Positions 24,046 through 40,381 of a stretch of DNA of 46,496 nucleotides are shown here, one piece after another; position 1 is the stretch's first letter, and each line of letters begins with the position of its first letter. Made by a program: the position numbers and the translations under genes. The notes under the pieces were generated by a model. The model did not search any database, was not told the origin of the DNA, and saw only the letters and a list, made by a program, of their open reading frames with translations. The DNA is from Planctomycetota bacterium (GTDB lineage: Bacteria; Planctomycetota; UBA1135), in contig JALUVI010000098.1 of the NCBI GenBank assembly GCA_027020785.1, positions 1 to 46,496 of the forward strand, given 5' to 3'.

Positions 24046-25686
24046 GTGGGCGCGCCACTCCTCGAGGTGTCCGGGCTGGAGGTCCGTCTCGCCGGCGACC
24101 GCGGCGAGGGGCGCCCGGTGGTCGCCGACGTCGGCTTCGCCGTCCCCGAGGGCGGCGCGGTCGCCTTGGTGGGGCGCTCCGGCAGCGGCAAGAGCCTCAC
24201 GGGGCTCGCCCTGGCCCGCCTGCTGCCCGAGGGCCTGCGCCTCGCCGCCGGCCGCGTCCTGTGGCGCGAGCAGGACGGTGGGCGCACCGACCTCGCCGCT
24301 CTGCCGGAGCGTGCCCTGCGCCGCCACCGCGGCCGTTCCCTCGCCTACGTGTTCCAGGATCCGGCGACCGCGTTGGACCCGGTGTGGCGCATCGGCAGCC
24401 AGCTCCGCGAGGTGCTGGCCCTGCACCGTCCCGAGCTCGACCGCGCCGCCCGCCGCGCCGAAGCGGTGCGCCTGCTCGGCCTGGTCGAGCTGCCCGACCC
24501 CGAGACCCTGATCGGCCGCTACCCGCACCAGCTCTCGGGGGGGCAGCGCCAACGCGTCATGCTCGCACTGGCGCTCGCCGGCCGCCCGCGGCTGCTGGTC
24601 GCCGACGAGCCGACCAGCGCGCTGGACCCGCCGCTGCGGCGCCAGGTCCTGGACCTGCTCGACCGGCTGCGCGCCGAACTCGGCCTGGCGGTGCTCTGGA
24701 TCAGCCACGACCTCGCCGAGGTCGCGCATCGCTGCGACCACATGGTGGTCCTCGACCGAGGTCGGGTGGTCGAGGCCGGGCCGCCGCAGCGGCTCCTGAC
24801 CGCTCCGGAGCACGCGGCCACCCGTGAGCTCGCCGCCGCGGCCCGGCCGTCCGGGGCGCGGCCCTCTGCGACCGACGGCGGGGGAGCCCTGTTGCGCGTG
24901 TCGCAGCTTCGTGTCCGGGCCCCGTCCCGGGCCTGGCGGGGCGACGCCGGACCGGTCCTGCTCGACGGGATCACCTTCGACCTCGCGCGGGGCGAGACCC
25001 TGGCCGTGGTCGGCGAGTCGGGCAGCGGCAAGACCACCCTGCTGCGCGCCCTCCTCGCCCTTCCGGGGCCCCACCCCGAGGGCGCCGTGTTCCTGGACCT
25101 GCCGGAGGTCGGTCGGGTGGACTGGCTGGGCCTCCCGGAGCGTCGCAGGCGGCCGCTCCGTCGCCACCTGGGCCCCGTGTTCCAGGACCCGCACGGCTCC
25201 CTGGACCCACGGCTGGCGCTGTGGCGCAGCGTCGCCGAGCCGCTGGAGGTCCATCGGCTGGCGTCGCGCAGTGCGCTTCGCGAGCGGGCGGTGGAACTCC
25301 TGGTCCGGGTCGGGCTCGAGCCCGAGCTCGCCGACCGTCTGCCCGGTGAGGTGTCGGGCGGGCAGGCGCAGCGCGTCGCCATCGCCCGAGCCCTGGCGCC
25401 GCGGCCGGCCTTGATGCTCTGCGACGAGGCGGTCAGCGCCCTGGACGTCGTCGCCCAGCGCCACGTCCTGGAACTCCTCCGTCGCCTCCAGGACGAGGAC
25501 GGTTTCGGACTCCTCTTCGTCGCGCACGACCTCGGAGTGGTCCGGGCGCTCGCCCACCGCACCCTGGTCCTGGACCGAGGTCGGATGGTGCGTCTCGGCC
25601 CGACCGAGGAGGTCTTCGCCGACCCCAGGGCCGAAGCCGCCCGGCGTCTCGTCGCCGCCGATGCGGGGCTAGACTCGGCGCCGTGA
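24046..25686 (+). CDS. Double ABC ATPase (fused DppD-DppF type) of the peptide importer
   Basis: Energises the divergently encoded importer. 546 residues with two complete nucleotide-binding domains in one chain. Domain 1 (about 1-265): GRSGSGKS, LSGGQRQRVMLALAL, LLVADEPTSALD, WISHD. Domain 2 (about 285-540): GESGSGKT, VSGGQAQRVAIARAL, LMLCDEAVSALD, VAHD. The fusion replaces two separate ATPase genes. GTG start with TAGAAT upstream; the stop overlaps the next gene's start (GTGA). Confidence 0.94.
   Translation: MGAPLLEVSGLEVRLAGDRGEGRPVVADVGFAVPEGGAVALVGRSGSGKSLTGLALARLLPEGLRLAAGRVLWREQDGGRTDLAALPERALRRHRGRSLAYVFQDPATALDPVWRIGSQLREVLALHRPELDRAARRAEAVRLLGLVELPDPETLIGRYPHQLSGGQRQRVMLALALAGRPRLLVADEPTSALDPPLRRQVLDLLDRLRAELGLAVLWISHDLAEVAHRCDHMVVLDRGRVVEAGPPQRLLTAPEHAATRELAAAARPSGARPSATDGGGALLRVSQLRVRAPSRAWRGDAGPVLLDGITFDLARGETLAVVGESGSGKTTLLRALLALPGPHPEGAVFLDLPEVGRVDWLGLPERRRRPLRRHLGPVFQDPHGSLDPRLALWRSVAEPLEVHRLASRSALRERAVELLVRVGLEPELADRLPGEVSGGQAQRVAIARALAPRPALMLCDEAVSALDVVAQRHVLELLRRLQDEDGFGLLFVAHDLGVVRALAHRTLVLDRGRMVRLGPTEEVFADPRAEAARRLVAADAGLDSAP
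25670..25675 (+). promoter_or_regulatory. Possible internal -10 element for the HAD hydrolase
   Basis: TAGACT ends 7 bases before the GTG at 25683, inside the last codons of the ATPase gene. It may give the hydrolase its own leaderless transcript in addition to read-through. Confidence 0.4.
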
Positions 25687-26414
25687 CCGCCGCCCGTCCG
25701 TCCCTTCGCGCGCTCTTCTTCGACGTCGACGACACCTTGTTCCGGACCACCGACTTCGCCCAGGAGGCCCGGCGCCAGGCGGTCGAGGCGATGTGCGCTC
25801 GTGGCCTGCGCACCCCTCCCGACGAGGTCCTGGAGGTCCTCGCCCAGGTGGTCGCCGAGTTCGGCAGCAACGACGACCACCACTTCGATCGGGTGCTCGT
25901 GCGGCTCGGTCCGGAGGCCACCCGGGGCACGAACCTGGACCTTCTGGTGGTCGCGGGCGTCATCGCCTACCACGAGACCAAGTGGCGGCGGTTGCGCATC
26001 GATCCAGCGGCGCGCGAACTCCTGTGCGACCTGGCCGGCACCGACCTGCGGCTCGGCATCGTCAGCGCCGGACTGGCCCGCAAGCAGATGGAGAAGATCC
26101 TGCGTCTGGGGCTCGACGAGTTCGTGGACCCGGCGCTGATCTTCGTCACCGACCGGGTCGGCATCGCCAAGAGCAACCCGTTGCTCTACCGGCGGGCCGC
26201 CGAAGCGGCGGGAGCTCGGCCGGCGGAGGCCATGCACGTCGGCGACCACCCCGAGCACGACGTGACCTCGGCCGGAGCCGCCGGCCTGCGCACGGTGTGG
26301 CACCGCGCGGGGCGGCATGCCGAGAACGTGCCGAGTCGGGTGCCCGACCACGAGATCGCCGCGTTCCCCGAGCTGCGCTCCATCCTCCGTGAGCACTACG
26401 GCATCCCCGTGTGA
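25683..26414 (+). CDS. HAD-superfamily hydrolase
   Basis: Cytoplasmic phosphatase-like enzyme of 243 residues. Motif I FFDVDDTLF (nucleophile and acid Asp) is at about 11-19, motif II LGIVSAG near 119, the motif III Lys in IAKSNPLLYRRA, and motif IV VGDHPEHDVTSAGAAG near 195. An alpha-helical cap lies between motifs I and II. Substrate unknown. GTG start overlaps the ATPase stop. Ends just before a strong hairpin. Confidence 0.9.
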   Translation: MTAARPSLRALFFDVDDTLFRTTDFAQEARRQAVEAMCARGLRTPPDEVLEVLAQVVAEFGSNDDHHFDRVLVRLGPEATRGTNLDLLVVAGVIAYHETKWRRLRIDPAARELLCDLAGTDLRLGIVSAGLARKQMEKILRLGLDEFVDPALIFVTDRVGIAKSNPLLYRRAAEAAGARPAEAMHVGDHPEHDVTSAGAAGLRTVWHRAGRHAENVPSRVPDHEIAAFPELRSILREHYGIPV

Positions 26415-26483: not shown

Positions 26484-29126
26484 TCAGTCGCGGCCGAGCT
26501 CGGAGTCGAGGCGCTGGGTGACCTCGTTGGCGTCGGTGATGTAGGCGCGGATGACCAGGATCACGTCCTTGTTCTCGTCGGCCGTGCCCTCGGTCTTGAA
26601 CAGCAGCGACAGCAGCGGGATGTCGCCGAGGAACGGCACCTGGGACCGCTGGTCGATGCGGAACAGTTTCTTGAGCCCGCCGATGACCACGGCGCCGCCG
26701 TCGGGGACGATGGCGTTGGTGTTGGCGGTCGCGACCTGGAGTTCGGGCAGCTGCAGGGTGACCGGGGTGGTCAGGCCGGCCAGTGACGAGGTGAACTCGG
26801 GGATCGGTCGCAGCAGGGTGGCCACGGTCGGCCGCAGTTCCAGCATGATGTACTTCCGGTCCTGGAAGATGGTCGGGCGCACGTCCAGCACGATGCCGTC
26901 GGAGATCACGCCGACCGACGGGTCGGCGATGATGCTGGCCAGGGCCACCTCCACGTCGAAGTCCTGGACGTAGGTGATCTGGTTGAGCATCGTGGCGTAG
27001 GCCCGCTGCGTGTTCTGCGCCGTGAGTACGGTGCCGGTCAGCTCCTCGGCGTGCTGCTTCTTCTGGACCGCCCGGATGATCAGGTTGTACTGGAGGTCGT
27101 CCAGGAAGGCGAGCTGCATGGTCAGACCGCCGGCGACGCCGAGACGCGAGCCGTAGGCGCCGAGGATGTTCTCGGTGCGGGCCCGGATGTCGCCATTGGC
27201 CCCTTGGTCGAGGAACGCGCCGGCCGACGGGTTGGTGGCGGCGCCCGAGGGCAGCCCGGGGCCGTCGTTGTCGAGCGCGTTGGATGCGTTGTCCTCGGAG
27301 CCCGAGTTGACGTCGTCCAGGACCACCAGGTCGAGCGAGTCGGGGCTGCCGCCGTTGCCGCGCCAGTCCACCCCGATCTCCTCGAGGAAGTCCTTGTTGA
27401 TGGTGATGAACCGCGCCTCGATGGTGACCATCGAGCTGGTGTAGGTGCGCAGGTTCTGCAGGAACTCGTGGAGTTCCTTCTGGACCTTGGGCGTGTGGCG
27501 CACGAACAGCAGGCCGTTCTGGATGCGCAGCGACACGCCCTCGATCTCGCCGTCCCAGGTACCCGGAGCCACCGACTGCTTGATCAGGGTCTCCAGGTTG
27601 TCGGGGTCGTAGATCGTGACCGGGTCGGGGGCGACGCCGCCGAAGGTCGGCTCCTCGTCGTCGTACTCCTCGTCGGGCAGCCGGATCTTGTCGATCTTCG
27701 GCGGCGTGAAGTCGGTGAGCTGCGCGATCAGGTCACGGATGTCGTGCGGGTGCAGCACCAGGTTCGAGTAGGCCCGCTGGGTGGAGGTCACGTAGACGAC
27801 CCCGTTGCGAACGGTCCAGGTGACCTCCTCGCCGGCCTGGTCGGTGATGATGTTCAGGGCCTGGAGCACCGTCATCTCGTGGGGGAGGTCCAGGTTGAAC
27901 TCGACGCCGTTGGAGTCCACCGCCTCGACCGCGTCGGGGGTGACCACGATGGGCACGCTGGTGAAGGTCCGGATCGGCTCGATCACCGTCTCCAGGCTGG
28001 TCTCCCCGTCGAACACCAGGCCGGGGATGCGCTGGTCGGAGAGCTGTCGGACCAGCTCCGCGTTCTGCGGGTCGGCGGCGGAGTCCTCGGGGGTCTCGAT
28101 GTACTCGCGGCGCCGCTCGGAGATCTCGCGCCAGAACTCGGGGTCAGGGTATTCGAGGACCTCTTCCTGCAGGACGCGCGCCTCCGCGAGCTCGGCCTCC
28201 CACTGACGGAACCGCTCGCGGCGCTCGACCACGAAGCGCGACTGACGGTCCTCGTGGCTGGCGCGCCGTGCGGTGTCGCGCAGTTCCTGGGCGCGCTCGT
28301 CGAGCGGCTCTTCGCGCAGGATGGCGGTGGTCAGGCGCTCGACCTCGTCGAAGCGGTAGGCGTCGAAGGCCTCGAGCGCCTGCTCCATCATGCCGTCGAG
28401 GCGGCGACGGCGCAGTTCGGCCGCACGCTGCTCCTCTTCCTTGAGCTTGGCGTAGGCCGCGGCGACCTCCCGGTCGCGCTCGGCGGCGAGGGCGAGGTCG
28501 CGGCTGGCCTCGGCGTCCTCCAGCAGCCGTTGGGCGCGCTCCTCCAGGCCGCCCCAGTCGCGCACCAGGGTGGTGCCGTGGACGTTGGCCAGCGCGATCC
28601 GGGCCGAGGCGATGGCGCCGTCGTAGTCGCCCTGGGCGAGCAGGGCCTCACCCCGCTCGACCTCGGCTTCGGTCTCGGTGCGCAGTTGTTCCGCCTTCGC
28701 CAGCGTCCGCAGTCGCACGTCCTCGCTCGAACCCGTGAGGTCGGTCGAGGCCTTGCCGAGCGCCACCTGCACCTGCTCGAGCACGTCCATCACCTCGGGA
28801 TTGCCGGGGTCCACCTCGAGGGCCTTGACCAGGTGCTCCTCGGCTTCGAGGAGGCGACCGTCGGCGAAGGCGTCCCGGGCCAGGTCCAGGCGTTGCTCGA
28901 CCAGGAGGGCCTTCTTCTGCTCACGCAGTTCCTTCTGCTTGGCGGCCGCGGCGGCGAGCTCGGCGTCTCCCGGCTCCTGGGTCGGGAGCGAGCCGGCGTC
29001 GTCGGCGATCTCGTCCACGGCGAAGTGCGGCATCGAGGTCGCCGCGCCGTCCGAGGACGAGCAGGCGCCGAGGAGGGCGGCGCCGAGGGACAGGAGCAGG
29101 ACGAACGGGAGCAGGGTTCTCTTCAT
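26484..29126 (-). CDS. TPR-secretin fusion lipoprotein B
   Basis: Predicted outer-membrane pore, 880 residues. The lipoprotein signal is MKRTLLPFVLLLSLG followed by LLGAC with Ser at +2. Residues about 50-320 are charged TPR/coiled-coil helices (FADGRLLEAEEHLVKALEVD, YDGAIASARIALANV). About 345-560 holds periplasmic N-type domains (VPIVVTPDAVEAV, NGVVYVTSTQRAY, GLLFVRHTPKVQKELHEFLQ). About 570-870 is the secretin barrel, with FLEEIGVDWRG, AIVPDGGAVVIGG and VPFLGDIPLLSLLFK (from 830). It is clearly paralogous to the secretin at 36674-39283. The ATG overlaps the decarboxylase stop (ATGA), and a possible promoter (29203-29208) lies inside that gene. No GspE/F or pilin genes are nearby. Confidence 0.9.
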   Translation of the reverse strand: MKRTLLPFVLLLSLGAALLGACSSSDGAATSMPHFAVDEIADDAGSLPTQEPGDAELAAAAAKQKELREQKKALLVEQRLDLARDAFADGRLLEAEEHLVKALEVDPGNPEVMDVLEQVQVALGKASTDLTGSSEDVRLRTLAKAEQLRTETEAEVERGEALLAQGDYDGAIASARIALANVHGTTLVRDWGGLEERAQRLLEDAEASRDLALAAERDREVAAAYAKLKEEEQRAAELRRRRLDGMMEQALEAFDAYRFDEVERLTTAILREEPLDERAQELRDTARRASHEDRQSRFVVERRERFRQWEAELAEARVLQEEVLEYPDPEFWREISERRREYIETPEDSAADPQNAELVRQLSDQRIPGLVFDGETSLETVIEPIRTFTSVPIVVTPDAVEAVDSNGVEFNLDLPHEMTVLQALNIITDQAGEEVTWTVRNGVVYVTSTQRAYSNLVLHPHDIRDLIAQLTDFTPPKIDKIRLPDEEYDDEEPTFGGVAPDPVTIYDPDNLETLIKQSVAPGTWDGEIEGVSLRIQNGLLFVRHTPKVQKELHEFLQNLRTYTSSMVTIEARFITINKDFLEEIGVDWRGNGGSPDSLDLVVLDDVNSGSEDNASNALDNDGPGLPSGAATNPSAGAFLDQGANGDIRARTENILGAYGSRLGVAGGLTMQLAFLDDLQYNLIIRAVQKKQHAEELTGTVLTAQNTQRAYATMLNQITYVQDFDVEVALASIIADPSVGVISDGIVLDVRPTIFQDRKYIMLELRPTVATLLRPIPEFTSSLAGLTTPVTLQLPELQVATANTNAIVPDGGAVVIGGLKKLFRIDQRSQVPFLGDIPLLSLLFKTEGTADENKDVILVIRAYITDANEVTQRLDSELGRD

Positions 29127-30649
29127 CGGGGAGGCGATTGGGCAGGGGACCCGGGAGGCGGGGAGGACCGCCACCCGCTGGCGAGCGGCCGGGGAGGCGA
29201 AGAATGTAGCAGTCCCCCGCCTCCCTGGCTACGGGCGGCGGCGGCCTGCTGGTGCAGGGCGGCGAGCCGCCCCACGACCTCGAGGGCCCGTTCCGGGGCC
29301 ATCCCGGGGTTGATCAGGACCATCCGATGGCAAGGGCGGCCGTCCAGTCGGGTCAGACTGGTCCAGGCCTCGCCCTCGGCCTCCAGGGCCCGGTGGACGG
29401 CGGCGACGTCGGCGTCGGCGGCCGGGTCCCGGGGGCCGAAGGCGACGACGTTCAGGTCGGGGCGGTGTCGTGGTTCGAACACCGGATGGTCCTCCAGCGC
29501 GGCGTGGAGGGCGCGGGCGGTGCGCAGGCGGTCCTCGAGGCGCTCGCGCAGCCCGCGCAGCCCGAGCCGGCGCAGGACCATCCACACCTTGAGCGCGTCG
29601 AAGCGCCGGCTGCCGTCGAGGGCGCGGCGTCCCTGGCTCAAGGGCACGGCCTCGTCGTGGGGGAGGAGCCGGTCCAGGTAGGGGGCCTCGTAGTCCGCCA
29701 CCTTGAGCCGGCGCTCCTCGCGCACCAGCAGGAGCCCGGCCGACTTCGGCGCCCACAGCCACTTGTGCGGGTCCAGGCCCAGGCTGTCGGCGCGTTCCAG
29801 ACCCGCGAGGAGCCGGGCCCGGGCCTCGTCGTGGAACAACAGCGCCCCGCCGTGGGCGCCGTCCACGTGCAGCCACAGGCCTTCCGCGGCGCAGAAGTCG
29901 GCGCAGGCCGGGATCGGGTCCACGGCTCCGACCGCGGTGGTCCCGGCGGTGGCGACCACCGCCAGGACCTCGCGGCCGCGGGCCCGGGCCCGGTCGCGGG
30001 CCCGCGGCAGGTCCTCGGGGTCCATGCGGCGCTCGGGGCCGCGGACGGCCACCGGCTCGCAGGCCTCGGAGCCGAGGCCGAGGACGGCGCAGGACTTGGC
30101 GATGGAGTAGTGGGCGTCCGCCGAGGCGAGCACCGCCCAGCTCCCGCGCAGTCCATGGCGGGAGGCGTCCGGTTCGGCGCGGTCCCGCGCCAGCAGCAGC
30201 GCGGTCAGGTTGGCCCCGGTGCCGCCGGTGGTGAAGACCCCGCCGGCTTCGGGGCCGAACCCGGCCCGGTCGGCGAACCATCGGAGCAGCCGTTTCTCGA
30301 GCAGGGTGGCGCCGGGAGCGAGCTCGAAGGCCAGCAGGTTCTGGTTCAGCGCCGAGGCCAGCAGGTCGGCGACGATGCCGGCAGGTTCCACGCCGCTGTC
30401 CATGTGGCCGGCGTAGCCGGGGTGACCGACGTGGACGGCGTGGGCCTCGGCCCAGTCGGCGACCTCGCCCACGAGCTGCGACAGCGGGCGCCCCTCCTCG
30501 GCCACGAGGGGACCGTCCGGCGCCCGCGGGTCGGCGGGGAAGATGGGCCGTTCGGCGATCCCGGCGAGGTAGTCCGCGACCCGCGCCGCGGCCGCCTCCA
30601 GGGCCTCCCGAAGCTCTTCCGGGGGCACGGCGTGCTCCGGGTTGGCCAA
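29123..30649 (-). CDS. Group II PLP-dependent amino acid decarboxylase
   Basis: 508 residues of the aromatic-amino-acid/glutamate decarboxylase fold. VGHPGYAGHMDSG near residue 74, FTTGGTGANLTALL, DGAHGGALLFH (PLP-stacking region) and LGLDPHKWLW, whose Lys is the PLP-binding residue, are in order. Substrate cannot be told. The TTG at 30649 is preceded by GGAGG and sits 13 bases after the exbD stop. After about residue 465 the sequence becomes a Ser/Pro/Gly-rich tail that runs to an ATGA overlap with secretin B. A metabolic enzyme inside an envelope-machine operon is unexpected. Confidence 0.9.
   Translation of the reverse strand: MANPEHAVPPEELREALEAAAARVADYLAGIAERPIFPADPRAPDGPLVAEEGRPLSQLVGEVADWAEAHAVHVGHPGYAGHMDSGVEPAGIVADLLASALNQNLLAFELAPGATLLEKRLLRWFADRAGFGPEAGGVFTTGGTGANLTALLLARDRAEPDASRHGLRGSWAVLASADAHYSIAKSCAVLGLGSEACEPVAVRGPERRMDPEDLPRARDRARARGREVLAVVATAGTTAVGAVDPIPACADFCAAEGLWLHVDGAHGGALLFHDEARARLLAGLERADSLGLDPHKWLWAPKSAGLLLVREERRLKVADYEAPYLDRLLPHDEAVPLSQGRRALDGSRRFDALKVWMVLRRLGLRGLRERLEDRLRTARALHAALEDHPVFEPRHRPDLNVVAFGPRDPAADADVAAVHRALEAEGEAWTSLTRLDGRPCHRMVLINPGMAPERALEVVGRLAALHQQAAAARSQGGGGLLHSSPPRPLASGWRSSPPPGSPAQSPPR
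29203..29208 (-). promoter_or_regulatory. Possible -10 element for secretin B
   Basis: Minus-strand TACATT lies 76 bases before the ATG at 29126, within the codons for the low-complexity C-terminal tail of the decarboxylase. No good -35. Confidence 0.35.
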
Positions 30650-30662
30650 GGCGCCTCCGGCC

Positions 30663-31145
30663 CTACTCGTTCTCGAAGGTCCCGGCGAAGGACACCTTCT
30701 CGAATCCGAGCTCGATCACGACGTCGAGGAGCTTGACCACGTCGTCGTAGATGATCCCCTTGCGGGCGTCCAGGGTGATCGGGGTCTCGGCCTTGTCCAT
30801 GCCGGCCAGGAAGCGCTTGACCTCCTCGGGGGTTCGGAAGGTCTGGGTGCCGATCTCGTAGCGCACCCGTCGGTTGACGTACTTCTTCAGCCCCCGCAGC
30901 TCGGGGTCGTCCACCAGTTCGCCGGGGTCCGACACCAGCAACAGGATGTCCACCTTCTCGATCTCGGGCGCGACGGTGGTGGAGGTGCCCATGTCCTTGG
31001 GCAGGGCTGCGTCGAGTCGGCCCTCCAGGATCTTGAACTTCAGCGTGACGATGAAGAAGATCAACAGCAGGAAGGTGACGTCGATCATGGGCGTCATGTC
31101 GCCCTTGACCGGATCGGTCTCTCGTCCCTTGCGTTCGCGTGCCAT
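30663..31145 (-). CDS. exbD: ExbD/TolR-type proton-channel subunit 2
   Basis: Inner-membrane protein of 160 residues with one N-terminal helix. GDMTPMIDVTFLLLIFFIV contains the conserved proton-carrying Asp (D22). The periplasmic domain ends with the usual TLDARKGIIYDDVVKLLDVV pattern. Good Shine-Dalgarno AGGAGG 8 bases before the ATG. Works with ExbB at 31842-32555 and a second ExbD immediately upstream. Confidence 0.93.
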   Translation of the reverse strand: MARERKGRETDPVKGDMTPMIDVTFLLLIFFIVTLKFKILEGRLDAALPKDMGTSTTVAPEIEKVDILLLVSDPGELVDDPELRGLKKYVNRRVRYEIGTQTFRTPEEVKRFLAGMDKAETPITLDARKGIIYDDVVKLLDVVIELGFEKVSFAGTFENE

Positions 31146-31191
31146 GTGGTGTGCCTCCTGGGCCTCCCGTGCCTCCGGGGGGTGCCGGCGG

Positions 31192-31791
31192 TCAGCCGGC
31201 CGGGTTGGGTTCGGAAGCCGCGAGTTGCACCTTCCAGATCTTGATGCCGTCCCGGGTACAGACCTCCATGATCTTCTGGATGTACTTGAACGGCGTGTTG
31301 CGGTCGGCCCGGATCAGGATCGGGTCGTCGGGCAGCGGAATGCCCAGGGTCTCGTCCATCTCCACCTTCATGTAGGGGACGAACACGTCCTTCATCGTGT
31401 CGGCCAGCTTCCAGTAGAAGTCCGGCCGGCCGCGCCGGATCGGGTCGGTGCGGGCGCCCGGGTCCCACCGCGGGTGGTAGAGGATCTGGCGCTTCCAGAC
31501 CACGTCGGACCACTCGATGTCGTCCGGGATCTCGACGCCGAAGGTCTGGCGGTACTGCTGCTTGACCCAGGACGGAACCCCGCCGGGCGGGAACCACCGG
31601 ATGTTCAGGATCGGGCGGTTGTCGGGCGGGACGTCGTGGCCCGCCTGCTGGGCCACGGGCAGTTTCAGGTCCTCCAGCTCCTTCTTCGACATGTCGTTGA
31701 CGATGATGAAGAAGATGATGAGGAGGAAGGTGAGGTCGATCATGGGGGTCATGTCGCCCTCGACTTCCACTTCGCCGCGTTTGCGTGCCAT
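31192..31791 (-). CDS. exbD: ExbD/TolR-type proton-channel subunit 1, enlarged periplasmic domain
   Basis: 199 residues, about 40-60 longer than a usual ExbD. GDMTPMIDLTFLLIIFFII carries the conserved Asp (D19). The family C-terminal pattern (PILIRADRNTPFKYIQKIME) is separated from the membrane helix by an extra segment at about 50-130 rich in Trp, Arg and Pro (IEWSDVVWKRQILYHPRWD). That insert probably binds another component. Shine-Dalgarno GGAGG is present but lies in a hairpin (31801-31817). Confidence 0.9.
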   Translation of the reverse strand: MARKRGEVEVEGDMTPMIDLTFLLIIFFIIVNDMSKKELEDLKLPVAQQAGHDVPPDNRPILNIRWFPPGGVPSWVKQQYRQTFGVEIPDDIEWSDVVWKRQILYHPRWDPGARTDPIRRGRPDFYWKLADTMKDVFVPYMKVEMDETLGIPLPDDPILIRADRNTPFKYIQKIMEVCTRDGIKIWKVQLAASEPNPAG

Positions 31792-31800
31792 CGTGCTTTC

Positions 31801-31817
31801 CTCCTCTAGTCTAGGAG
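31801..31817 (-). promoter_or_regulatory. Hairpin sequestering the exbD1 ribosome-binding site
   Basis: On the minus strand CTCCT (31817-31813), a 7-base loop and AGGAG (31805-31801) form a 5-bp stem that covers the Shine-Dalgarno sequence 9 bases before the ATG at 31791. The exbB stop is 25 bases upstream, so ribosomes finishing exbB could open it. The loop also contains TAGACT, a -10-like hexamer. Confidence 0.45.
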
Positions 31818-31841
31818 CTGGATCGGGTCACCCAAGGGGGA

Positions 31842-32555
31842 TCACTCGACGCCGCGGAAGCGCTCGAAGAGGTCCTCGACCATGGCGCCGATCTCGATGC
31901 TCACGGTGGTGACCCGGTTGCGGAAGTAGGCGAAGAAGGCGGTGGTGGGGATGGCCACCATCAGGCCCTCCAGGGTGGTCACCAGGGCGAGCTGGATGTC
32001 GCCGGCGAAGTCCGCCGGGTTGACGCCGCCCTGGCCGGCCGAAGCGATCGTACCGAAGGCGCCGACCATTCCGAGGACGGTACCGAACAGACCCATCATC
32101 GGGCCGATACCGGCGATCAGGGAGAGCCAGCCGATCTTCTGCATGAGTCGGATGGTCTCTTCGTCCTCCATTTCCTCCACGGCCTTCTCGATGGTCTCGA
32201 AGGGGTGGCCGAGCTTGCGGATGCCGGCGGCGACGACCCGGGTGTAGTAGGTCGGGTTCGACTCACAGACCTCCAGGGCTTCCTGGTAGTTGCCCTCGGC
32301 GAACAGCTCCTCGACCTCGTCCACGATCTCCGGCGGCGCGAGCTTCTCGCGCTTGATCGTCATGAAGTGCTCGATGATCAGGGCCAGCGCCACGACCGAC
32401 ATCAGGATGATGATCGCGCCGATGACGCCCGAGGCCTTGATGGCGTCGAGGAAGGAGACCCCGGACTTCTTCGGGGCGGCGTCCTGGGCGAAGGCGACGC
32501 CCGCGGTGACGAGGAAGGCCACGAAGGCCGGGGGCAGGAGACGGAATCGGGACAT
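31842..32555 (-). CDS. exbB: MotA/TolQ/ExbB-type proton-channel protein
   Basis: Inner-membrane motor subunit of 237 residues that forms the pentameric channel around ExbD. An N-terminal signal-like helix with an AQDAAPKK segment is followed by three membrane helices: IGAIIILMSVVALALIIEHF, GWLSLIAGIGPMMGLFGTVLG and LVTTLEGLMVAIPTTAFFAY, the last two lining the proton path. A cytoplasmic helical domain lies between helices 1 and 2. First gene of the exbB-exbD-exbD unit, with TAGAAT and a GC-rich hairpin in its leader. Confidence 0.94.
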   Translation of the reverse strand: MSRFRLLPPAFVAFLVTAGVAFAQDAAPKKSGVSFLDAIKASGVIGAIIILMSVVALALIIEHFMTIKREKLAPPEIVDEVEELFAEGNYQEALEVCESNPTYYTRVVAAGIRKLGHPFETIEKAVEEMEDEETIRLMQKIGWLSLIAGIGPMMGLFGTVLGMVGAFGTIASAGQGGVNPADFAGDIQLALVTTLEGLMVAIPTTAFFAYFRNRVTTVSIEIGAMVEDLFERFRGVE

Positions 32556-32584
32556 GGGGTTGCTTCTTCGGAGGCTGTGCAGGC

Positions 32585-32616
32585 TGACGCGGGGGAGGAG
32601 GCCCCCGCGGGTCAGG
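32585..32616 (-). promoter_or_regulatory. 5'-leader hairpin of the exbB transcript
   Basis: A 7-bp perfect stem (GCGGGGG / CCCCCGC, loop of 6) is extended by TGAC/GTCA across a 2-base bulge. It would sit at the very 5' end of an mRNA started from the TAGAAT at 32630-32625, 30 bases before the ATG. It might stabilise the mRNA or attenuate transcription; alternatively it is a terminator for the upstream TPR gene. Confidence 0.4.
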
Positions 32617-32624
32617 GAAGGGGA

Positions 32625-32630
32625 ATTCTA
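32625..32630 (-). promoter_or_regulatory. -10 element upstream of exbB
   Basis: Minus-strand TAGAAT, 69 bases before the ATG at 32555, in the 101-base gap after the TPR gene. No -35 consensus. Confidence 0.5.
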
Positions 32631-32656
32631 GCGGGCGTCACCCGGCGCGAGGAAGG

Positions 32657-33733
32657 TCATTCCTCGAGTCGGGCGCGGGCCTTGGCCGCCCAGGGCGTGC
32701 CCGGGTAGCGGTCGACGAGGCGCTGCCAGTAGCGGCGCGCCGCGGTGGGGTGGTCGCCGAGTTCGGCGGTGACGTCGCCGAGCTCCCACAGGGCTCGGGC
32801 CATGACGTCGGCCGCGGCCGGCAGCTCGGCCACGACGTGGCCCAGTCGCATCTGGGCGGAGCGCAGCTGGCCGGCGGCGCGCTCGCCGCGCGCCAGGCCG
32901 AGCAGGGCGGCGGCGCGGACGTCCACGTGGGTCTGGGGGTCGTCGAGCAGTCCCTGCCAGTAGGTGGCGGCGGCGTCGGGGCCTCCCTTGCGCTCGACCG
33001 CTTCGCCGAGCAGGATCTGGGCCTGGTCGCGGATGCGCAGCAGCCGGCTGCGGACTCCGCGGGGCAGGTCCGTGGCGGGCAGGCGGCCGGCGAGGTCGCG
33101 CAGGCGGGCCTCGGCGACCTCGGTCTGGCCGGCCTCGAGGAAGGCCCGACTGCGCTCCAGGTTGATCTCGGCTTCGAGCGACTTCGGCAGTCCCTTCTCG
33201 AAGGCCAGGTCCGAGAGGGCCTTGAGCAGGGCCACGGCGCCGTCGGTGTCGCCGGCGAGGACCGAAGCCCGGGCCTGGGCCAGCCGCGCCTCGGGGTACC
33301 ACCACAGGTCGGGGTGGGCGTCGGCCCACTCCCCGAGGGCGCGCACCGCGTCGGCGCTGCGCCCGGGGTCGGTGCGGGCCCAGGCCAGGAGGGCCAGGCC
33401 CTTCTGCAGCTCCAGCCAAGGCTTCAGCCACGCCGGATCGTCACCGGCGGCCGCGCCGGCGGCGTCGAGCAGGTTGACCGCCATGTCGAAGTCGTTGGCC
33501 TCGAGCGCGGAGAAGGCGCGCTCGACCTGGGGGTCCGTCGGCCCGGGACGGACCTCCAGCACCTCGCCGGCGGGGATCTCGACCGAGCCGTCCCCTCCCT
33601 GGAGGACCACCTGGTCGAGGCCTGCGGAGACGAGTCGGCCGGAGACGGTGCTGCCGTCGGTGCGGACCACCCGGTCCTGGGCGGGCAGGGCCGCGAAGGG
33701 CAGGGCGAGGAGGAGGGCGGAGACGATCGTCAT
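32657..33733 (-). CDS. Periplasmic TPR protein with SH3-like N-terminal domain
   Basis: 358 residues. Signal peptide MTIVSALLLALPFAALPAQ, then a small beta domain (VVRTDGSTVSGRLVSAGLDQ) of the kind often seen in planctomycete secreted proteins. TPR-like helices run to the end (FDMAVNLLDAA, GDTDGAVALLKALSD, GDHPTAARRYWQRLVDRYPG). The ATG follows the stop of the larger TPR gene by 4 bases, so the two are coupled. Probably a scaffold for the neighbouring motor. Confidence 0.85.
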   Translation of the reverse strand: MTIVSALLLALPFAALPAQDRVVRTDGSTVSGRLVSAGLDQVVLQGGDGSVEIPAGEVLEVRPGPTDPQVERAFSALEANDFDMAVNLLDAAGAAAGDDPAWLKPWLELQKGLALLAWARTDPGRSADAVRALGEWADAHPDLWWYPEARLAQARASVLAGDTDGAVALLKALSDLAFEKGLPKSLEAEINLERSRAFLEAGQTEVAEARLRDLAGRLPATDLPRGVRSRLLRIRDQAQILLGEAVERKGGPDAAATYWQGLLDDPQTHVDVRAAALLGLARGERAAGQLRSAQMRLGHVVAELPAAADVMARALWELGDVTAELGDHPTAARRYWQRLVDRYPGTPWAAKARARLEE

Positions 33734-33737
33734 CGGA

Positions 33738-36587
33738 TCAGTGGGCCTTGAGCCACTTCAGTTTGGCGGCGACGCTCGGGCCGGCGAACTCTTCCCCGAG
33801 GTCCGGAGCCTGACGCTCGAGGCCTTCGAGGATGCGCCTGTGGGCCCCGGCGTAGTCGGGGTCGACCTGACCCAGGCGGTAGGTCACGTAGATCTGCAGC
33901 ACGCGCGCCTCCCACCACGGGGCGTAGCGGAAGGGGCTGATCGGGGGATCCTTCCGACCGGCCTCGTAGGACGCGATCTGGACCAGCTCGTTGGCGGCTT
34001 CGGCGGCCTCGGTGAGGGCCTCGGCCGTGCCCTCGCCGGGCACTTCCATGATGCGGCCGTCCTTCTCGACCAGGAAGCCGGCCTTGACCATGACGGTGAA
34101 CTCCTTGACCCGGCGGTCGTTGGGGCGCGCCTGGCGCAGTCGGTCCACGATCGGTACGGCTTCGCCGACGCGCCGCTGTTCCAGCAGGGTGCGCACGAGT
34201 CGGACCTCCACGGCGAAGCGGTAGTCGTCGTTCAGCTCCGAGGCGTACTGGTCCAGGATGCGCCGCAGCAGTCCCTCGGCTTCCTCCCACTCGCCGAGCT
34301 GCAGGCGCAGGTCGGCTTCGGTGTAGAGGTTGGCCCAGGCCGGCCGCGTCGCCGCCTGGTTGTAGATGGACAGGTAGCGGACCGCCTTGGCCAGCGCCGC
34401 CGAGCGGTCGGCCGCGGTCTCGGCCGCGTTGGCCCGGTCCTGGAAGGACTTGTAGAGCTTGTACGCCGCCGAGGCCAGGCGCGTGGGCTTCGGTTCGCGC
34501 TCCTGGAGCGCGGCGAAGGCCCGCTCGGCTTCGTCGGGGCGCCCCAGCGCCAGCAGACCTTCGATCCTGAAGTCGAAGGCGGCGTCGGCGAGGTCCTTTT
34601 GCTCGGGGAAGCGCTCCTCGAAGCCCTCCAGGGCCTTCAGCATCTCTTCCCAGGCCTCGGTGTCGCCGAGCAGGGCCAGCTTGCGGTAGGTGCGTGCGAG
34701 GTAGAACGCCGCGGTCGGCACCTTCTCCTTGCGCGTCTTGCGCTCGAAGGGATCCTTGGGCGTGCGCTCCGGATCCGGAACCCACTCCTCGAGGTAGGTC
34801 TTCAGCAGGCGGATGGCCTCGTCGGCGTCCTCCCGGCGCCACTGGACGACGTCGTAGTGCGCGACGGCGCGTTGCACCAGTGCGGCCTCGGCGTAGCGAC
34901 TGGCCTCGGGGATGCGTTCGTAGGCCTGGATCGCCTGGTCGTAGGCGCGCAGCGCCTCCTTCACCTTGGCCGGATCCGGTTCCTTGGCCTTGCGCAGCGC
35001 CGAGGCGAGCCCCTGCGCCACCTTGTAGCGCGTCTCGGCGTTGCGCCAGGCGATGCTGTCCGGGGTCGCGCCGCCGAACTCGGAGACCGCGCGACTCGCC
35101 TTCTCGGCCCACTCCGACAGGACCGCATCGCTGGGACGGGAGCGGTAGATGACGTCGGCCTTGGCCTGCCAGGCCTTGGCGCAACGCAGCCCGTACTCTT
35201 CGTCGGTGGGGTAGCGCTCGGCCCCGGTCTGGTAGGCCAACGCGGCGAGCATCGGGAAGTCCAGCGCGTTCCAGGAGCGCCCCAGGTAGTAGAAGGTCCG
35301 GGCGCCGAACTCGGCCTCGTCGGGCGAACCGGCGAGGCGCGCGACCAGGCTGCGGAACAGGGTGATGGCGCGCTCGTAGTCCTCGTTGAAGAACGAGCCC
35401 TCACCGGCCTGATAGACCAGGTCCAGCGGGATCTCGGCGTCGGGCGGGGCCAGCTCGATGGCGTGGGCCATGACCGCGTTGGCCTCGAGTCGGAGCAGAC
35501 CGTTGGCGTTGTCGGTGGCGACCTGGTCGGCGATCTCCAACGCCTCGCGGATGCGGCCCTCGTCGGCCAGCTGCCGCGCCTGCATCAGCTGGATGCGGAA
35601 GCCGGGCTCGGAGACGGTGACGCCGGAATCGCGCAACCACGACTCGAAGTCGTCGAGGACCTCCTGGAACCGCTCTCGGGGCCCGGTCTTCTCCAGCAGC
35701 TGGAGCAGGCCGAAGTACGCGTCCTGGACGACGTCGCCGTAGTAGCCGCGGCTGCTCGGGTCGAGCTCGGGGCTGTCGAGGTACTCCTTGCCGGTCTCGA
35801 CGACGTACACGTAGTAGTCCTCGGCGTCGGAGTACTCGCCGCGCAGGGCGTAGGCGTCGCCGGTCAGTTTGTAGGCCCGCAGGCTCGCGACCGGCCCCGC
35901 GACCAGGGCGAAGCTCTCCAGGTGCGACAGCGCCTGCTGACTGTACTGGTCGCGTTCCAGCGAACCCGGCGGGTACAGCCGGGCCCAGGCGATGTAGGTC
36001 ATCGCGCGGAAGAACTGCGGGAAGTAGTAGTACTCGGCCTGGGCCGAGGTGTTCTCCTTGAGCGGATCGTTGCCCGGCAGGTTCTCCCACCAGTCGATCA
36101 GCGAGTTCATCGCGCGCAGCGCGGTCTTGAAGAAGGGCTCGGCGAACTCGAGCACCTCCTGGCGCTGCTCCTCGGTCAGCTCTCCGCTCAAGACCAGCTT
36201 CTCGACGTTCTGGGCGAAGGCGTAGGCGGTGGAACTCAACCGCGACTGCGCGCGTTGCGCCACGGCGCCCGCGGATTCGTCCTCGGTGATGCGTCCGTAG
36301 GCCTCGCCGGTCCGGGCCAGGAGCTCCAGCCGCTGCAGCGGATCGCGCTCGCGGTCGGCCTGGGCCTTGAGCACGTCGGCGAGCACCAGGTCGAGCTCGG
36401 CGCGCTCGGCTGCCGTGTCGGCCTTGGGGCGCTCCGCCTCGACGATGCGTTCGGCCCAGTGGGGGAGGCCGAAGTCCTTGGCGACGACGCGGGCCACGTC
36501 CGCGCTCTTGCGGATGGAGAGGTCGAAGTCGGGTTCCTGGACCGCGGCGAGCAGGCCCAGAGTGACGCCGGCCGTGAGGGCGAGCAT
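33738..36587 (-). CDS. Large periplasmic TPR-repeat protein
   Basis: 949 residues with a short N-terminal signal-like helix (MLALTAGVTLGLLAA), then all-helical TPR-like repeats throughout (YFPQFFRAMTYIAWARLYPP, YSDAEDYYVYVVETGKEYL, FNEDYERAITLFRSLVAR, WEEAEGLLRRILDQYAS). No catalytic motif. It starts 44 bases beyond a strong hairpin that ends the secretin A transcript, so it probably has its own promoter, which I cannot see clearly. Possibly a periplasmic spine between the ExbB/D motor and the secretins (inference from context). Confidence 0.85.
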   Translation of the reverse strand: MLALTAGVTLGLLAAVQEPDFDLSIRKSADVARVVAKDFGLPHWAERIVEAERPKADTAAERAELDLVLADVLKAQADRERDPLQRLELLARTGEAYGRITEDESAGAVAQRAQSRLSSTAYAFAQNVEKLVLSGELTEEQRQEVLEFAEPFFKTALRAMNSLIDWWENLPGNDPLKENTSAQAEYYYFPQFFRAMTYIAWARLYPPGSLERDQYSQQALSHLESFALVAGPVASLRAYKLTGDAYALRGEYSDAEDYYVYVVETGKEYLDSPELDPSSRGYYGDVVQDAYFGLLQLLEKTGPRERFQEVLDDFESWLRDSGVTVSEPGFRIQLMQARQLADEGRIREALEIADQVATDNANGLLRLEANAVMAHAIELAPPDAEIPLDLVYQAGEGSFFNEDYERAITLFRSLVARLAGSPDEAEFGARTFYYLGRSWNALDFPMLAALAYQTGAERYPTDEEYGLRCAKAWQAKADVIYRSRPSDAVLSEWAEKASRAVSEFGGATPDSIAWRNAETRYKVAQGLASALRKAKEPDPAKVKEALRAYDQAIQAYERIPEASRYAEAALVQRAVAHYDVVQWRREDADEAIRLLKTYLEEWVPDPERTPKDPFERKTRKEKVPTAAFYLARTYRKLALLGDTEAWEEMLKALEGFEERFPEQKDLADAAFDFRIEGLLALGRPDEAERAFAALQEREPKPTRLASAAYKLYKSFQDRANAAETAADRSAALAKAVRYLSIYNQAATRPAWANLYTEADLRLQLGEWEEAEGLLRRILDQYASELNDDYRFAVEVRLVRTLLEQRRVGEAVPIVDRLRQARPNDRRVKEFTVMVKAGFLVEKDGRIMEVPGEGTAEALTEAAEAANELVQIASYEAGRKDPPISPFRYAPWWEARVLQIYVTYRLGQVDPDYAGAHRRILEGLERQAPDLGEEFAGPSVAAKLKWLKAH

Positions 36588-36630
36588 GTTCCCTGGTGCG
36601 ATGGGGATGTCGGAGAAGGGCGGAAAGGAA

Positions 36631-36664
36631 GACGGCCGGAGACGACGCGGCGTCTCCGGCCGTC
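36631..36664 (-). terminator. Intrinsic terminator of secretin A
   Basis: A perfect 14-bp stem (GACGGCCGGAGACG and its complement, loop ACGCGG) starts 9 bases after the secretin A stop. On the minus strand it is followed by a pyrimidine-rich TTCCTTTCC. Confidence 0.8.
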
Positions 36665-36673
36665 GGGACGGAC

Positions 36674-39283
36674 CTAGAAGCCGCTCGGGAGCGGGCTCGG
36701 TTCGTGTTCCTGCGGGATGACGATGTTGGCCGTCAGCAGGATGATGAGGCGGCGGTAGCTCTCGTAGTTGCCCTGACGCGAGAAGAAGTAGGACAGGACC
36801 GGGATCTGCCCCAGGAAGGGCACGGTCGAGATCATCTCCTGCTGGTCGGCGATCTTCATGCCGCCGAGCATCAGGGTGCCGCCGTCCGGTACGAAGGCGC
36901 GGGCCCGGATCTTCTGCAGCTCGAGCTCGGGCAGCATCATGGTGACCGGGCTGCCGGTGCCGAGCGAGGTCTGGAAGGTCGGGATGGGCCGCTTCAGGGT
37001 GGCCACGGTCGGCCGCGCGTCGATCCAGACGAAGCGGCGGTCGGCGGTGACCACGGGGCGCACGTCGAGGTAGATGCCGTCGTTGGCGACCCGCACGATG
37101 GGGTCGGCGATGGCGGCGGCCGAGGCGATCTCGACGTTGAAGTCGGCGACGTAGCTGATCTGGTTGGCGACGACCAGGTTGGCCCGCGCCGTGTTGTAGA
37201 CCATCAGCTTGGGCTGGATGACCAGCTCGCTCCGCTTCGACTTCTCCACCGCACGCAGGATCATCTCCAGCTGGGTGTCGTCGAGCCAGGTGTACTGCAG
37301 CGACAGGCCGCCGGTGTTGGTCAGCACCGCGTCGTCACCGAGCGCGGTGTCGTACAGGTTCTCGGTGCGGCCGAGGATGTTGATGTCGTCGCTGGCTTCG
37401 CGGAAGAAGGCGCCGGGATCGTTGCCGGTGCCGATGGTGCCCGGCGCGTTGGGCGCACCGAAGTCGGTGCCGAAGTCGTCGAACACGTTGCTCGTGCCCT
37501 TGCCGGGGACGCCGACCGTGGAGTCGTTGCCGAGGCCGCGGAAGTCCACGCCGATGTCCTGCAGGAAGCTGTCCTCGACCTCGAGGAAGCGCACCGTCAC
37601 CTCGACCATGATGTTGGCCGGCTTGCGCAGGTCCTCCAGCAGCTGGGCCACCTGCTCCTGGACCTCACGGGTGTGGCGCACGATCAGGGTGCCGTGCTCC
37701 ACGGTCACCGTCTTCTGCTCGCCGTCCCACGAATCCGGCTCGATGACCTCCTGGATGGTCTCCAGGAGTTCGTCCTCGGTCAGGATGTTGGCCTCGGGTT
37801 CGGGCAGTTCCTCGGGCTCGGTGTCGATACCGCCGGACGGCACCAGGTTGAGCTCGGGCAGCACGAAGTCCTGCACCGGGCGCACGATGTCGCGCACCTC
37901 GTACTGGCGGGTCACCAGGTCGGTCTCGGCCTCCTCGGCGGTGACCACGTAGACCGCGCCGTTGCGGATGACGAACCGCACCTCGCGGTTGGTCAGGTCC
38001 TCCAGGATGGTCAGCAGCCGCGACACCGGGATGGCCTCCTTGAACACCAGGTTGATGGTCTTGAGGTCCTCGTCCACCTCGTCGCGCACGGTGGGGGAGA
38101 CCACGAAGTTCACCCCGGCCAACGACGACAGGTTGCGCGCGATCTCCTCGAGCGGCATGTCCTCGAAGCGGGGCACGACGCGGGTCTCGTCCAGCGCGGC
38201 CTGGATGGAGGCTTCGACCGGATCGGCGCGTTCCTCCTCCAGTGCGTCGTCCAGCGGCTTGCGCTTGTCCACGACGTTGCGCCAGTAGGAGACGTCGAAC
38301 TCGAGGCTGGACTTCGGCGGCACCACGTCCTCACGGAGCTCGTCGAAGGTCTTCTGCCACTCCCAAGCGAACTCCTCCGAGGTCTTCTCCGCGCGGTCGG
38401 CCATGGCCGCGTCCAGGGCGATGCGGCGCAGCTCCTCGGCCTCGGGGTTGCGCGGGTCCGCCTCGAGCAGCGCGTCGAGCGTCTCGACCGCGTCGTCGTA
38501 GAACCCCTTCTGGAATTGGGTGTTGGCCTGCTGCAGCAGGGTGCGCACGTAGTTCTCGCGGTACTCCTCGCGGGCGCGGCGCTCGGCGGCGGCCTCCTCG
38601 GCGGCGGCCGCGGTCTCGGCGGCGAGCCGCGCCGACTCGGCCGACGCCCGCGCCTGCTCCGCCTCCTGGAGGCGCGCCTCGACCAGCTGCAGGTCCACCC
38701 AGCCGCCGCCGGCGGTGGGGTTGACGGCGAGCGCCTCGCGGGCGGCGCGGTACGACGCGATGGCGGCGTCGTAGTCGCCGGCGGCCATGGCGCGGTCGCC
38801 TTCGGTCAGCAGCCCCTCGATGCGGATGCGCTGCGCCTGGCGCCGCCGTTCCGCCTGGCCGAGGGCGTCCTCGGACGACTCCCACTCCCAGGGCTGGCCG
38901 GCGAGGGCGGACTGGGCGCGCCGCAGCCCGTCGCGGGCGGCGACGTTCGCCGGGTCCAGGCGCTGCGCCTCGGCGTACTGGATCGCGGCGCCCTGGTAGT
39001 CGCCGCGCAGGAAGGCGTCGTCGCCGAGCTCCACGTACAGCCGTGCGAGCTCCTGACGCTTCTCCTTCTGCGCCGCGACGCGGTCGAGGAGTTCCCCGCC
39101 GTCCTGGTCGGCGGCGCCCGCTCCGGGCTCCTGTCCGAAGGCCATCTCGGTGGACTCGGTCCAGGCCGACTCGTCGGTGGGCGGCTCGTCTCCGGCGTCG
39201 GAGGACGAGCAGGCGAGGAGCAGGGGCAGGAGGCCCAGCGACAGGGCCGGGAGCAGCAGGAGGGACTTTCCGGGGGAGCGCAT
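36674..39283 (-). CDS. TPR-secretin fusion lipoprotein A
   Basis: Predicted outer-membrane pore, 869 residues, same architecture as secretin B. Lipoprotein signal ending LLLAC, with the same SSSD after the Cys. TPR/coiled-coil helices occupy about 60-320, including an Ala/Glu-rich stretch near 215-250. Periplasmic N-type domains at about 350-545 include LSSLAGVNFVVSPTV, FVIRNGAVYVVTAEE and VEHGTLIVRHTREVQEQV. The secretin core at about 550-855 includes FLQDIGVDFRG, AFVPDGGTLMLGGMK and VPFLGQIPVLSYFF (from 821). It has its own promoter (39358-39385) and terminator, so it is a single-gene unit next to the TPR/motor genes. Confidence 0.9.
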   Translation of the reverse strand: MRSPGKSLLLLPALSLGLLPLLLACSSSDAGDEPPTDESAWTESTEMAFGQEPGAGAADQDGGELLDRVAAQKEKRQELARLYVELGDDAFLRGDYQGAAIQYAEAQRLDPANVAARDGLRRAQSALAGQPWEWESSEDALGQAERRRQAQRIRIEGLLTEGDRAMAAGDYDAAIASYRAAREALAVNPTAGGGWVDLQLVEARLQEAEQARASAESARLAAETAAAAEEAAAERRAREEYRENYVRTLLQQANTQFQKGFYDDAVETLDALLEADPRNPEAEELRRIALDAAMADRAEKTSEEFAWEWQKTFDELREDVVPPKSSLEFDVSYWRNVVDKRKPLDDALEEERADPVEASIQAALDETRVVPRFEDMPLEEIARNLSSLAGVNFVVSPTVRDEVDEDLKTINLVFKEAIPVSRLLTILEDLTNREVRFVIRNGAVYVVTAEEAETDLVTRQYEVRDIVRPVQDFVLPELNLVPSGGIDTEPEELPEPEANILTEDELLETIQEVIEPDSWDGEQKTVTVEHGTLIVRHTREVQEQVAQLLEDLRKPANIMVEVTVRFLEVEDSFLQDIGVDFRGLGNDSTVGVPGKGTSNVFDDFGTDFGAPNAPGTIGTGNDPGAFFREASDDINILGRTENLYDTALGDDAVLTNTGGLSLQYTWLDDTQLEMILRAVEKSKRSELVIQPKLMVYNTARANLVVANQISYVADFNVEIASAAAIADPIVRVANDGIYLDVRPVVTADRRFVWIDARPTVATLKRPIPTFQTSLGTGSPVTMMLPELELQKIRARAFVPDGGTLMLGGMKIADQQEMISTVPFLGQIPVLSYFFSRQGNYESYRRLIILLTANIVIPQEHEPSPLPSGF

Positions 39284-39545: not shown

Positions 39546-40328
39546 CTAGCGGGTCGGTCCGCTCCGGTTTCCCGTCCTTTCCACGGGCGGGCGCAGCCCG
39601 AGGTGGCGGAGGACCGCCTGGAGATCCGCCCAGCACGCGGCCTTGGCGGCCGGATTCCGCAGGAGGTAGGCCGGGTGGTAGGTGGCGACCACCGGGGGGC
39701 CGCCCCCGGGGCGTTCCAGCACCCGACCGCGCAGCGCCCCGAGCGGGGCGGTGCTGCCGAGGAGGGTCTGGGCGGCGTGGCGGCCGAGCGCGAGCAGGAG
39801 TTCGGGACGGACCAGTCGGATCTGCTCCTCGAGCCAGGGCGCGCAGGCGTCGCGTTCCTCGGGCTCGGGGTCGCGGTTGCCGGGCGGGCGGCACTTGAGC
39901 ACGTTGGCGACGAAGACCTCGCGGCGGGACAGCCCGAGCCCGCGCTCCAGGATGCGGTCCAGCAGCTGGCCGGCGGGGCCGACGAAGGGGCGGCCCTCGC
40001 GGTCCTCCACCGCGCCGGGGCCCTCGCCGACGACCATGAGGCGCGCCGTCGCGGGCCCTTCTCCGGGCACGGCGTGGGTCCGCAGCGCGCCCAGCGGGCA
40101 GCGGCGGCAGGCCGCGACGCCGGCGGCCACTGCGGCCAGGGCCGCGGCGGCGTCGTCCGCCGGGGCCGCGTCCCCGGTCGCCGCGGCGGTCCCGGCCGCC
40201 GTCGCTGCGCCGCCGTCGCCGCCCGCGGACGCGGGCCGGGCCAGCGGCGAGGCCCCGGCGCGGGCCAGCTGTCCCAGGAGCTCGGCCAGGGCGAGCCTCG
40301 GGTCGGGGTCGGCGGAGGGGGCGGGCAC
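39546..40328 (-). CDS. udg: Uracil-DNA glycosylase, family 4 (Fe-S)
   Basis: Removes uracil from DNA in base excision repair. About 260 residues from the GTG at 40328. Four cluster cysteines fit family 4: C74 and C77 (CRRC), C146 (LKCRPPGNRDP) and C162 (ERDACAPWL). Catalytic/binding motifs are GEGPGAVEDREGRPFVG and TYHPAYLLRNP. The first 60 residues are an Ala/Pro-rich extension not found in typical 200-residue members, so the true start may be further downstream. Confidence 0.92.
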   Translation of the reverse strand: MPAPSADPDPRLALAELLGQLARAGASPLARPASAGGDGGAATAAGTAAATGDAAPADDAAAALAAVAAGVAACRRCPLGALRTHAVPGEGPATARLMVVGEGPGAVEDREGRPFVGPAGQLLDRILERGLGLSRREVFVANVLKCRPPGNRDPEPEERDACAPWLEEQIRLVRPELLLALGRHAAQTLLGSTAPLGALRGRVLERPGGGPPVVATYHPAYLLRNPAAKAACWADLQAVLRHLGLRPPVERTGNRSGPTR

Positions 40329-40381
40329 GGCCCCAGTTTGCCTTTTCCCGAGGCCCTGCGTATCCTCGCCGTCCCACCGCG

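Follow-up and report, generated by a model that had tools for sequence, protein, structure and literature searches.

In a planctomycete contig of 46,496 nucleotides, referred to here as the window, two secretin genes lie on one strand together with genes for an ExbB/ExbD motor and two exported TPR proteins, and this partnership of a secretin pair with a TolQR-type motor is kept across much of the phylum. We put the chances at about even that the motor and outer-membrane parts of a single machine spanning the envelope are encoded by the block; in this machine the motor would act on the two secretins. If this is true, it would be a new way to energise a pore; pores of this kind usually depend on ATP-driven partners.

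Gene content and layout of the block

The window (our contig C98) belongs to a genome of 2.47 Mb in 270 contigs, which is 91% complete. The block occupies positions 26484 to 39283, and its genes follow one another from 5' to 3' on the minus strand in the order sec2-tprL-tprS-exbB-exbD1-exbD2-PLP decarboxylase-sec1. The features, together with the gene adjoining sec1, are:

sec2, 36674 to 39283, minus strand: lipoprotein with a TPR/coiled-coil N-terminal region, N0-/N1-like domains and a C-terminal secretin domain (PF00263 81 bits and TPR hits; NCBIfam Amuc_1098 model nearest, below its cut-off; structure model and fold search)
tprL, 33738 to 36587, minus strand: long exported TPR protein (TPR_19 and TPR_14 hits; signal peptides in orthologs; conserved in 90 loci)
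tprS, 32657 to 33733, minus strand: exported protein with an SH3-like barrel and a TPR array, nearest YbgF/CpoB
exbB, 31842 to 32555, minus strand: TolQ/ExbB proton-channel protein (PF01618 87.6 bits)
exbD1, 31192 to 31791, minus strand: ExbD/TolR protein (PF02472 49.9 bits)
exbD2, 30663 to 31145, minus strand: second ExbD/TolR protein (PF02472 54 bits)
PLP-dependent decarboxylase, 29123 to 30649, minus strand: between exbD2 and sec1 (PF00282, E 6.5e-56)
sec1, 26484 to 29126, minus strand: second TPR-secretin lipoprotein (PF00263 70 bits), in a clade of its own in the secretin tree
HAD-family hydrolase, 25683 to 26414, plus strand: adjoins sec1 (PF00702 above cut-off; TIGR02253 143 bits, cut-off 169.75)

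From sec2 to sec1 the intergenic spacings are 86, 4, 101, 50, 46, 13 and -4 bases, the last being the overlap of the decarboxylase stop with the sec1 start. Because the gaps are this small, the eight genes look like one operon. An earlier, sequence-only reading of this DNA had placed seven genes here on one strand, all of which are borne out by the Pfam hits, and had missed the eighth, the decarboxylase. The latter occupies the gap between exbD2 and sec1 in the window's own family only (10 loci), and on this ground it was rejected as a component of the machine; it is probably a lineage-specific insertion. In loci L108-L128, L133 and L139 the same gap holds a sulfatase-fold gene of the alkaline phosphatase superfamily. 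Sulfatases that carry formylglycine are expected to have the motif C/S-x-P-x-R, which is replaced by T-L-P-[AGS]-H in 20 of 25 members of this cluster, and this weakens the gene as a sign of sulfated-polysaccharide uptake.

Several neighbours were also recorded. In 85 loci the gene for the HAD-family hydrolase is retained downstream of sec1; its strand is usually that of the block, and in the window's family the opposite one, and it has no obvious role. Directly upstream of sec2, the window has a uracil-DNA-glycosylase gene (39546-40466, minus strand); a gene whose product is a membrane protein with a weak SPOR domain (40382-40960, plus strand) lies head to head with it. PADLOC models for ZorA/ZorB and other defence systems gave zero hits with any of the seven core proteins, and a phage-defence motor of the Zorya type was rejected.

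Conservation across the phylum

The sequence-only reading had proposed that the cluster would be an accident of position if the ExbB/ExbD genes had no conserved neighbourhood with secretins. An ExbB search of the window's order found an ortholog scoring at least 226 bits in 53 of 61 genomes, and in these 53 exbB is surrounded by secretin genes on the same strand, with the order sec2-tprL-tprS-exbB-exbD-exbD-sec1 nearly always kept. When a two-secretin profile was run on 294 genomes, a sample spread evenly over the phylum, secretin pairs on the same strand, mostly 8 to 14 kb apart, were found in many other families, and the same block lay between the paired secretins in dozens of such regions that were read. 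Linkage of ExbB with a secretin, counted from regions read directly or inferred from coordinates, extends to about 29 families outside the order and seven inside it. A single contig scan with ExbB as the query returned only five loci. Conservation across the order and in other families leads us to reject an accident of position.

By HMM, 77 of the 96 loci with both ExbB and a secretin contain the complete set; in the others a component is absent by this test, several being truncated at contig ends. This collection holds a few duplicates, and loci of the order itself served as the training set for the HMMs. The partnership also withstands rearrangement. In loci L156, L158 and L159 the secretins stand in tandem and are followed by TPR-exbB-exbD-exbD, while in two genomes (G007 and G033) the motor half and the secretin half are split, yet both are retained. 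The secretin is not always accompanied by a motor, since at L135 and L146 a related secretin stands beside pilM and pilO, and the region read has no motor.

Variation in the motor genes was seen as well. Three or four ExbD genes, not two, follow exbB in L116, L119, L120, L122, L123 and L140. The split motor loci L101, L106 and L176 carry extra genes for single-pass membrane proteins after exbD2, which are possible force transducers, and motor loci unlinked to secretins occur in families f32, f34 and f60.

The motor and the TPR proteins

ExbB and both ExbD proteins score above the cut-offs of PF01618 and PF02472, respectively, and conserve the channel threonines and aspartates. T159 and T194 of ExbB are invariant in 102 sequences, and the channel aspartate is present in 102/102 sequences of ExbD1 (D19) and 101/101 of ExbD2 (D22). 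From what is known of ExbBD and TolQR we take these four to be the proton-path residues and, judged by sequence, the motor looks intact.

TPR hits were obtained for both scaffold proteins, and orthologs of both TprS and TprL have signal peptides. The TprS model shows the SH3-like barrel and the TPR array with a mean pLDDT of 95. Its fold search gave only generic TPR matches, including a Campylobacter flagellar periplasmic scaffold (9hmf) and SprE of the T9SS, and naming the family of TprS by this means was therefore dropped.

It could be argued that ExbB/ExbD are simply the general Ton/Tol motor of the cell, serving TonB-dependent receptors or maintenance of the envelope, and have no tie to the secretins beyond a common operon. 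In the window's genome no MotA/TolQ/ExbB protein other than that of exbB was found, and small relatives likewise gave a single match each in the ExbB search of the order. Plug domains of TonB-dependent receptors were detected in each of 17 genomes tested, with two in the window's, and OmpA/Pal-type domains occur too; besides, ExbB is nearest TolQ (67 bits with the TolQ equivalog model, cut-off 221) and tprS is nearest YbgF/CpoB. Since such receptors occur in genomes with a single ExbB, the sole ExbB may also serve as their Ton motor. However, neither TolA, TolB, Pal, TonB nor a vWA-like transducer was recognised among the genes of the block, a general motor would have no need to stay linked to a pair of secretins across more than 30 families, and the linkage is also found in genomes with several other ExbB proteins. 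We therefore regard a purely general Ton/Tol role as rather improbable.

The two secretins

Both secretins score well above the curated PF00263 cut-off of 27.5 bits and give TPR hits in their N-termini. They start with lipoprotein signals (LLGAC-SSSD and LLLAC-SSSD) and share 33% identity across 868 aa, which agrees with the earlier description of two paralogous TPR-secretin lipoproteins. The gate domain is well conserved in both. The sec2 model (mean pLDDT 78, pTM 0.43) comprises the TPR/coiled-coil region, N0-/N1-like domains, named from our reading of the secondary structure, and the secretin domain, the relative placement of the domains being unsure. Its secretin fold is borne out by a fold search, in which it matched PilQ, GspD and InvG, the best solved match being Vibrio PilQ, and the best matches of the PDB sequence search were PilQ chains and the phage export secretin 7ofh. 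The top NCBIfam hit of sec2 is the model of the Amuc_1098 family (NF042912), whose architecture of a TPR N-terminal region and a C-terminal secretin domain is also found here; with 111 bits for sec2 and 63 for sec1, both remain below its 750-bit cut-off, as they do below the 284-bit cut-off of the PilQ model TIGR02515 (94 and 71 bits, respectively). On these sequence comparisons, sec1 and sec2 are distant relatives of the PilQ of PVC bacteria (Amuc_1098).

In a tree of 129 secretins, all 45 upstream copies and all 47 downstream copies fell on opposite sides, a split that covers the order and nearer families. SH-aLRT support for the downstream clade was 99%; for the upstream clade it was 18% with the row L120 and 99% without it. 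The tandem secretins of L130 and L131 have one member in each clade. Because upstream and downstream copies form separate clades, the duplication is old, with both copies kept, presumably for distinct roles. This conservation of two secretin lineages, faithful to position, offers a clear genetic target.

Other arrangements of secretins were observed in some families. Families f32 and f83, represented by high-quality single-contig genomes in which paired secretins were not found, have a single giant secretin gene for a protein of about 1400 to 1550 aa (L148, 9879-14534; L149, 9858-14108). At L154 (7468-15211), a PilM/PilO-type pair is followed immediately by three related secretin genes in tandem, and the region read has no motor genes.

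Type IV pilus genes and ATP-driven systems

In many other families sec2 is directly preceded by pilM, a PilO-like gene and a gene for a fibronectin-III-like membrane protein (FN3), the PilO-like label being given by position and topology only, as no Pfam model recognised the protein. The PilM upstream of sec2 in L146 reaches 235 bits with the Amuc_1101 model (cut-off 650). No pilM or pilO genes adjoin the block in the window. Several relatives in its family retain the FN3 gene, at the place taken in the window by the uracil-DNA-glycosylase gene, and its group keeps the secretins with the motor though pilM and pilO are no longer adjacent. The motor, two secretins and alignment genes of the type IV pilus were probably united in the ancestral locus. 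Since pilM, PilO-like and FN3 genes precede sec2 in so many families, the pore side would thus descend from the type IV pilus alignment/secretin complex.

A second PilM was found at L168, on contig C249 of the window's genome, and at L169-L174, flanked by genes for an FHA-domain protein and a PilO-like protein. These loci also hold a membrane protein of roughly 900 aa and pilin-like genes, and apparently form a separate type II-like system; the PilM on C249 was rejected as the missing partner for this reason.

The sequence-only reading had stated that the cluster has no secretion ATPase or platform protein. This is true of the block, and it extends to the other loci: no GspE/PilB ATPase, GspF/PilC platform or pilin-like gene was found in any of the 96 linked loci (GspE/GspF homologs absent from 96/96), in line with its expectation that gspE and gspF would be missing near linked exbB and secretin genes. 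It does not hold for the genome as a whole. Platform proteins of ATP-driven systems are encoded elsewhere in 47 of 47 genomes tested, and in the window's genome contig C19 gives ATPase and platform hits and has no secretin. Because ATPase and platform systems exist elsewhere in every genome checked, any independence of the secretins from ATPases is at most putative.

These data bear on an alternative in which sec1 and sec2 serve as PilQ pores for a type IV pilus or a type II-like system whose PilB, PilT and PilC are encoded elsewhere, the ExbB/ExbD-TPR proteins only aiding pore assembly or peptidoglycan anchoring, with no drive of transport. PilQ and Amuc_1098 are the closest relatives, the upstream pilM and pilO-like genes of other families would fit, and C19 could supply an ATPase and platform that have no secretin beside them. 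However, three further secretins are encoded in the window's genome, and two of these have ATPases of their own in the same cluster; the 96 linked loci are devoid of pilin, ATPase and platform genes, and one pilus needs no two conserved secretin lineages. We consider this alternative unlikely.

A proposed envelope machine

In the machine that we favour, ExbB and the ExbD1/ExbD2 pair, presumably in the five-to-two ratio of known relatives, would make up an inner-membrane motor driven by protons. TprS and TprL would be periplasmic scaffolds, which either carry the motor's movement or anchor the motor. The motor would target two distinct secretins of type IV pilus type, each held by a lipid anchor, at their TPR and N0/N1 regions, and movement derived from proton flow would reach them through the TPR proteins or through the periplasmic domains of the ExbD proteins. 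The motor might gate, position or move the pores, or act on the material in transit, and might do so alongside the customary ATP-driven parts or in their place.

Coupling of motor and secretins is supported by the fixed partnership, which includes the tandem-secretin loci and the genomes G007 and G033 with their split halves. The motor-secretin contact, the direction of force and the cargo are inferred, as is the drive of the secretins by the proton-motive force. It has been reported that a TonB homolog matters for type IV pilus-dependent transformation and a relative for type IV pilus assembly in Pseudomonas (PMC8811193), a precedent for Ton-type help to pili. A point against the proposal is that none of the genes of the block was recognised as a transducer resembling TonB, TolA or a vWA protein.

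The proposed machine is a testable candidate for planctomycete surface features such as crateriform structures and macromolecule uptake. In a more far-reaching and rather unlikely reading, it would be a candidate for the route by which some planctomycetes have been suggested to take up entire polysaccharides (PMC11131199).

Comparison with known systems

The composition of the block recalls the AglRQS-Glt machine of Myxococcus xanthus, with one ExbB, two ExbD and two exported TPR proteins (PMC3169522), and here the resemblance drawn in the sequence-only reading holds. ExbB has 237 aa versus 245 in AglR/AglQ/AglS, and the ExbD proteins have 160 and 199 aa versus 162 and 194; the set as a whole, in make-up and protein lengths, resembles AglR/AglQ/AglS with GltD and GltE. 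In contrast, the Myxococcus machine has no secretin and its genes lie in separate clusters. Because make-up and lengths are so similar, the block could encode an Agl/Glt-like motor for gliding or adhesion, with the secretins acting as outer-membrane anchors, not as channels. Among its genes, however, neither a GltG-type FHA/TonB transducer nor a non-secretin outer-membrane barrel, as in the barrel-type Glt proteins, was recognised, and a mere anchor would not need the well conserved gate domain of both secretins. This makes a gliding or adhesion role very doubtful.

A TPR-tolQ-tolR-tolR-vWA cluster has been noted in PVC bacteria (PMC12204202). Like the block, it contains a run of a TPR gene, one tolQ-like gene and two heterologous tolR-like genes; secretins are not mentioned there, and its vWA transducer has no recognised counterpart here. 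Similarity to Tol-Pal lies in ExbB being nearest TolQ and the TPR proteins nearest YbgF/CpoB, whereas the block is without TolA, TolB and Pal and has secretins as the outer-membrane partners.

The first reading of this DNA also knew of no named system with this composition. That was too broad for the pore side, given its relation to PVC PilQ and the pilM/pilO-like genes upstream elsewhere, and it stands for the combination: no description was found in the literature joining secretin, ExbB/TolQ, TPR and planctomycetes, in a search whose coverage leaves out most subscription papers. Taken singly, both halves belong to known kinds, the secretins to the type IV pilus type and the motor to the TolQR type; it is their joining that was not found described. 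The nearest counterpart of the pore is Amuc_1098, the TPR-containing PilQ of Akkermansia muciniphila, which resembles sec1 and sec2 in its about 900 aa, its TPR N-terminal part with a C-terminal secretin domain, and its location in the outer membrane (PMC4960237). Compared with the Amuc_1098/Amuc_1101 system of Akkermansia, the planctomycete block has two secretins, with a putative proton motor and TPR scaffolds encoded between them.
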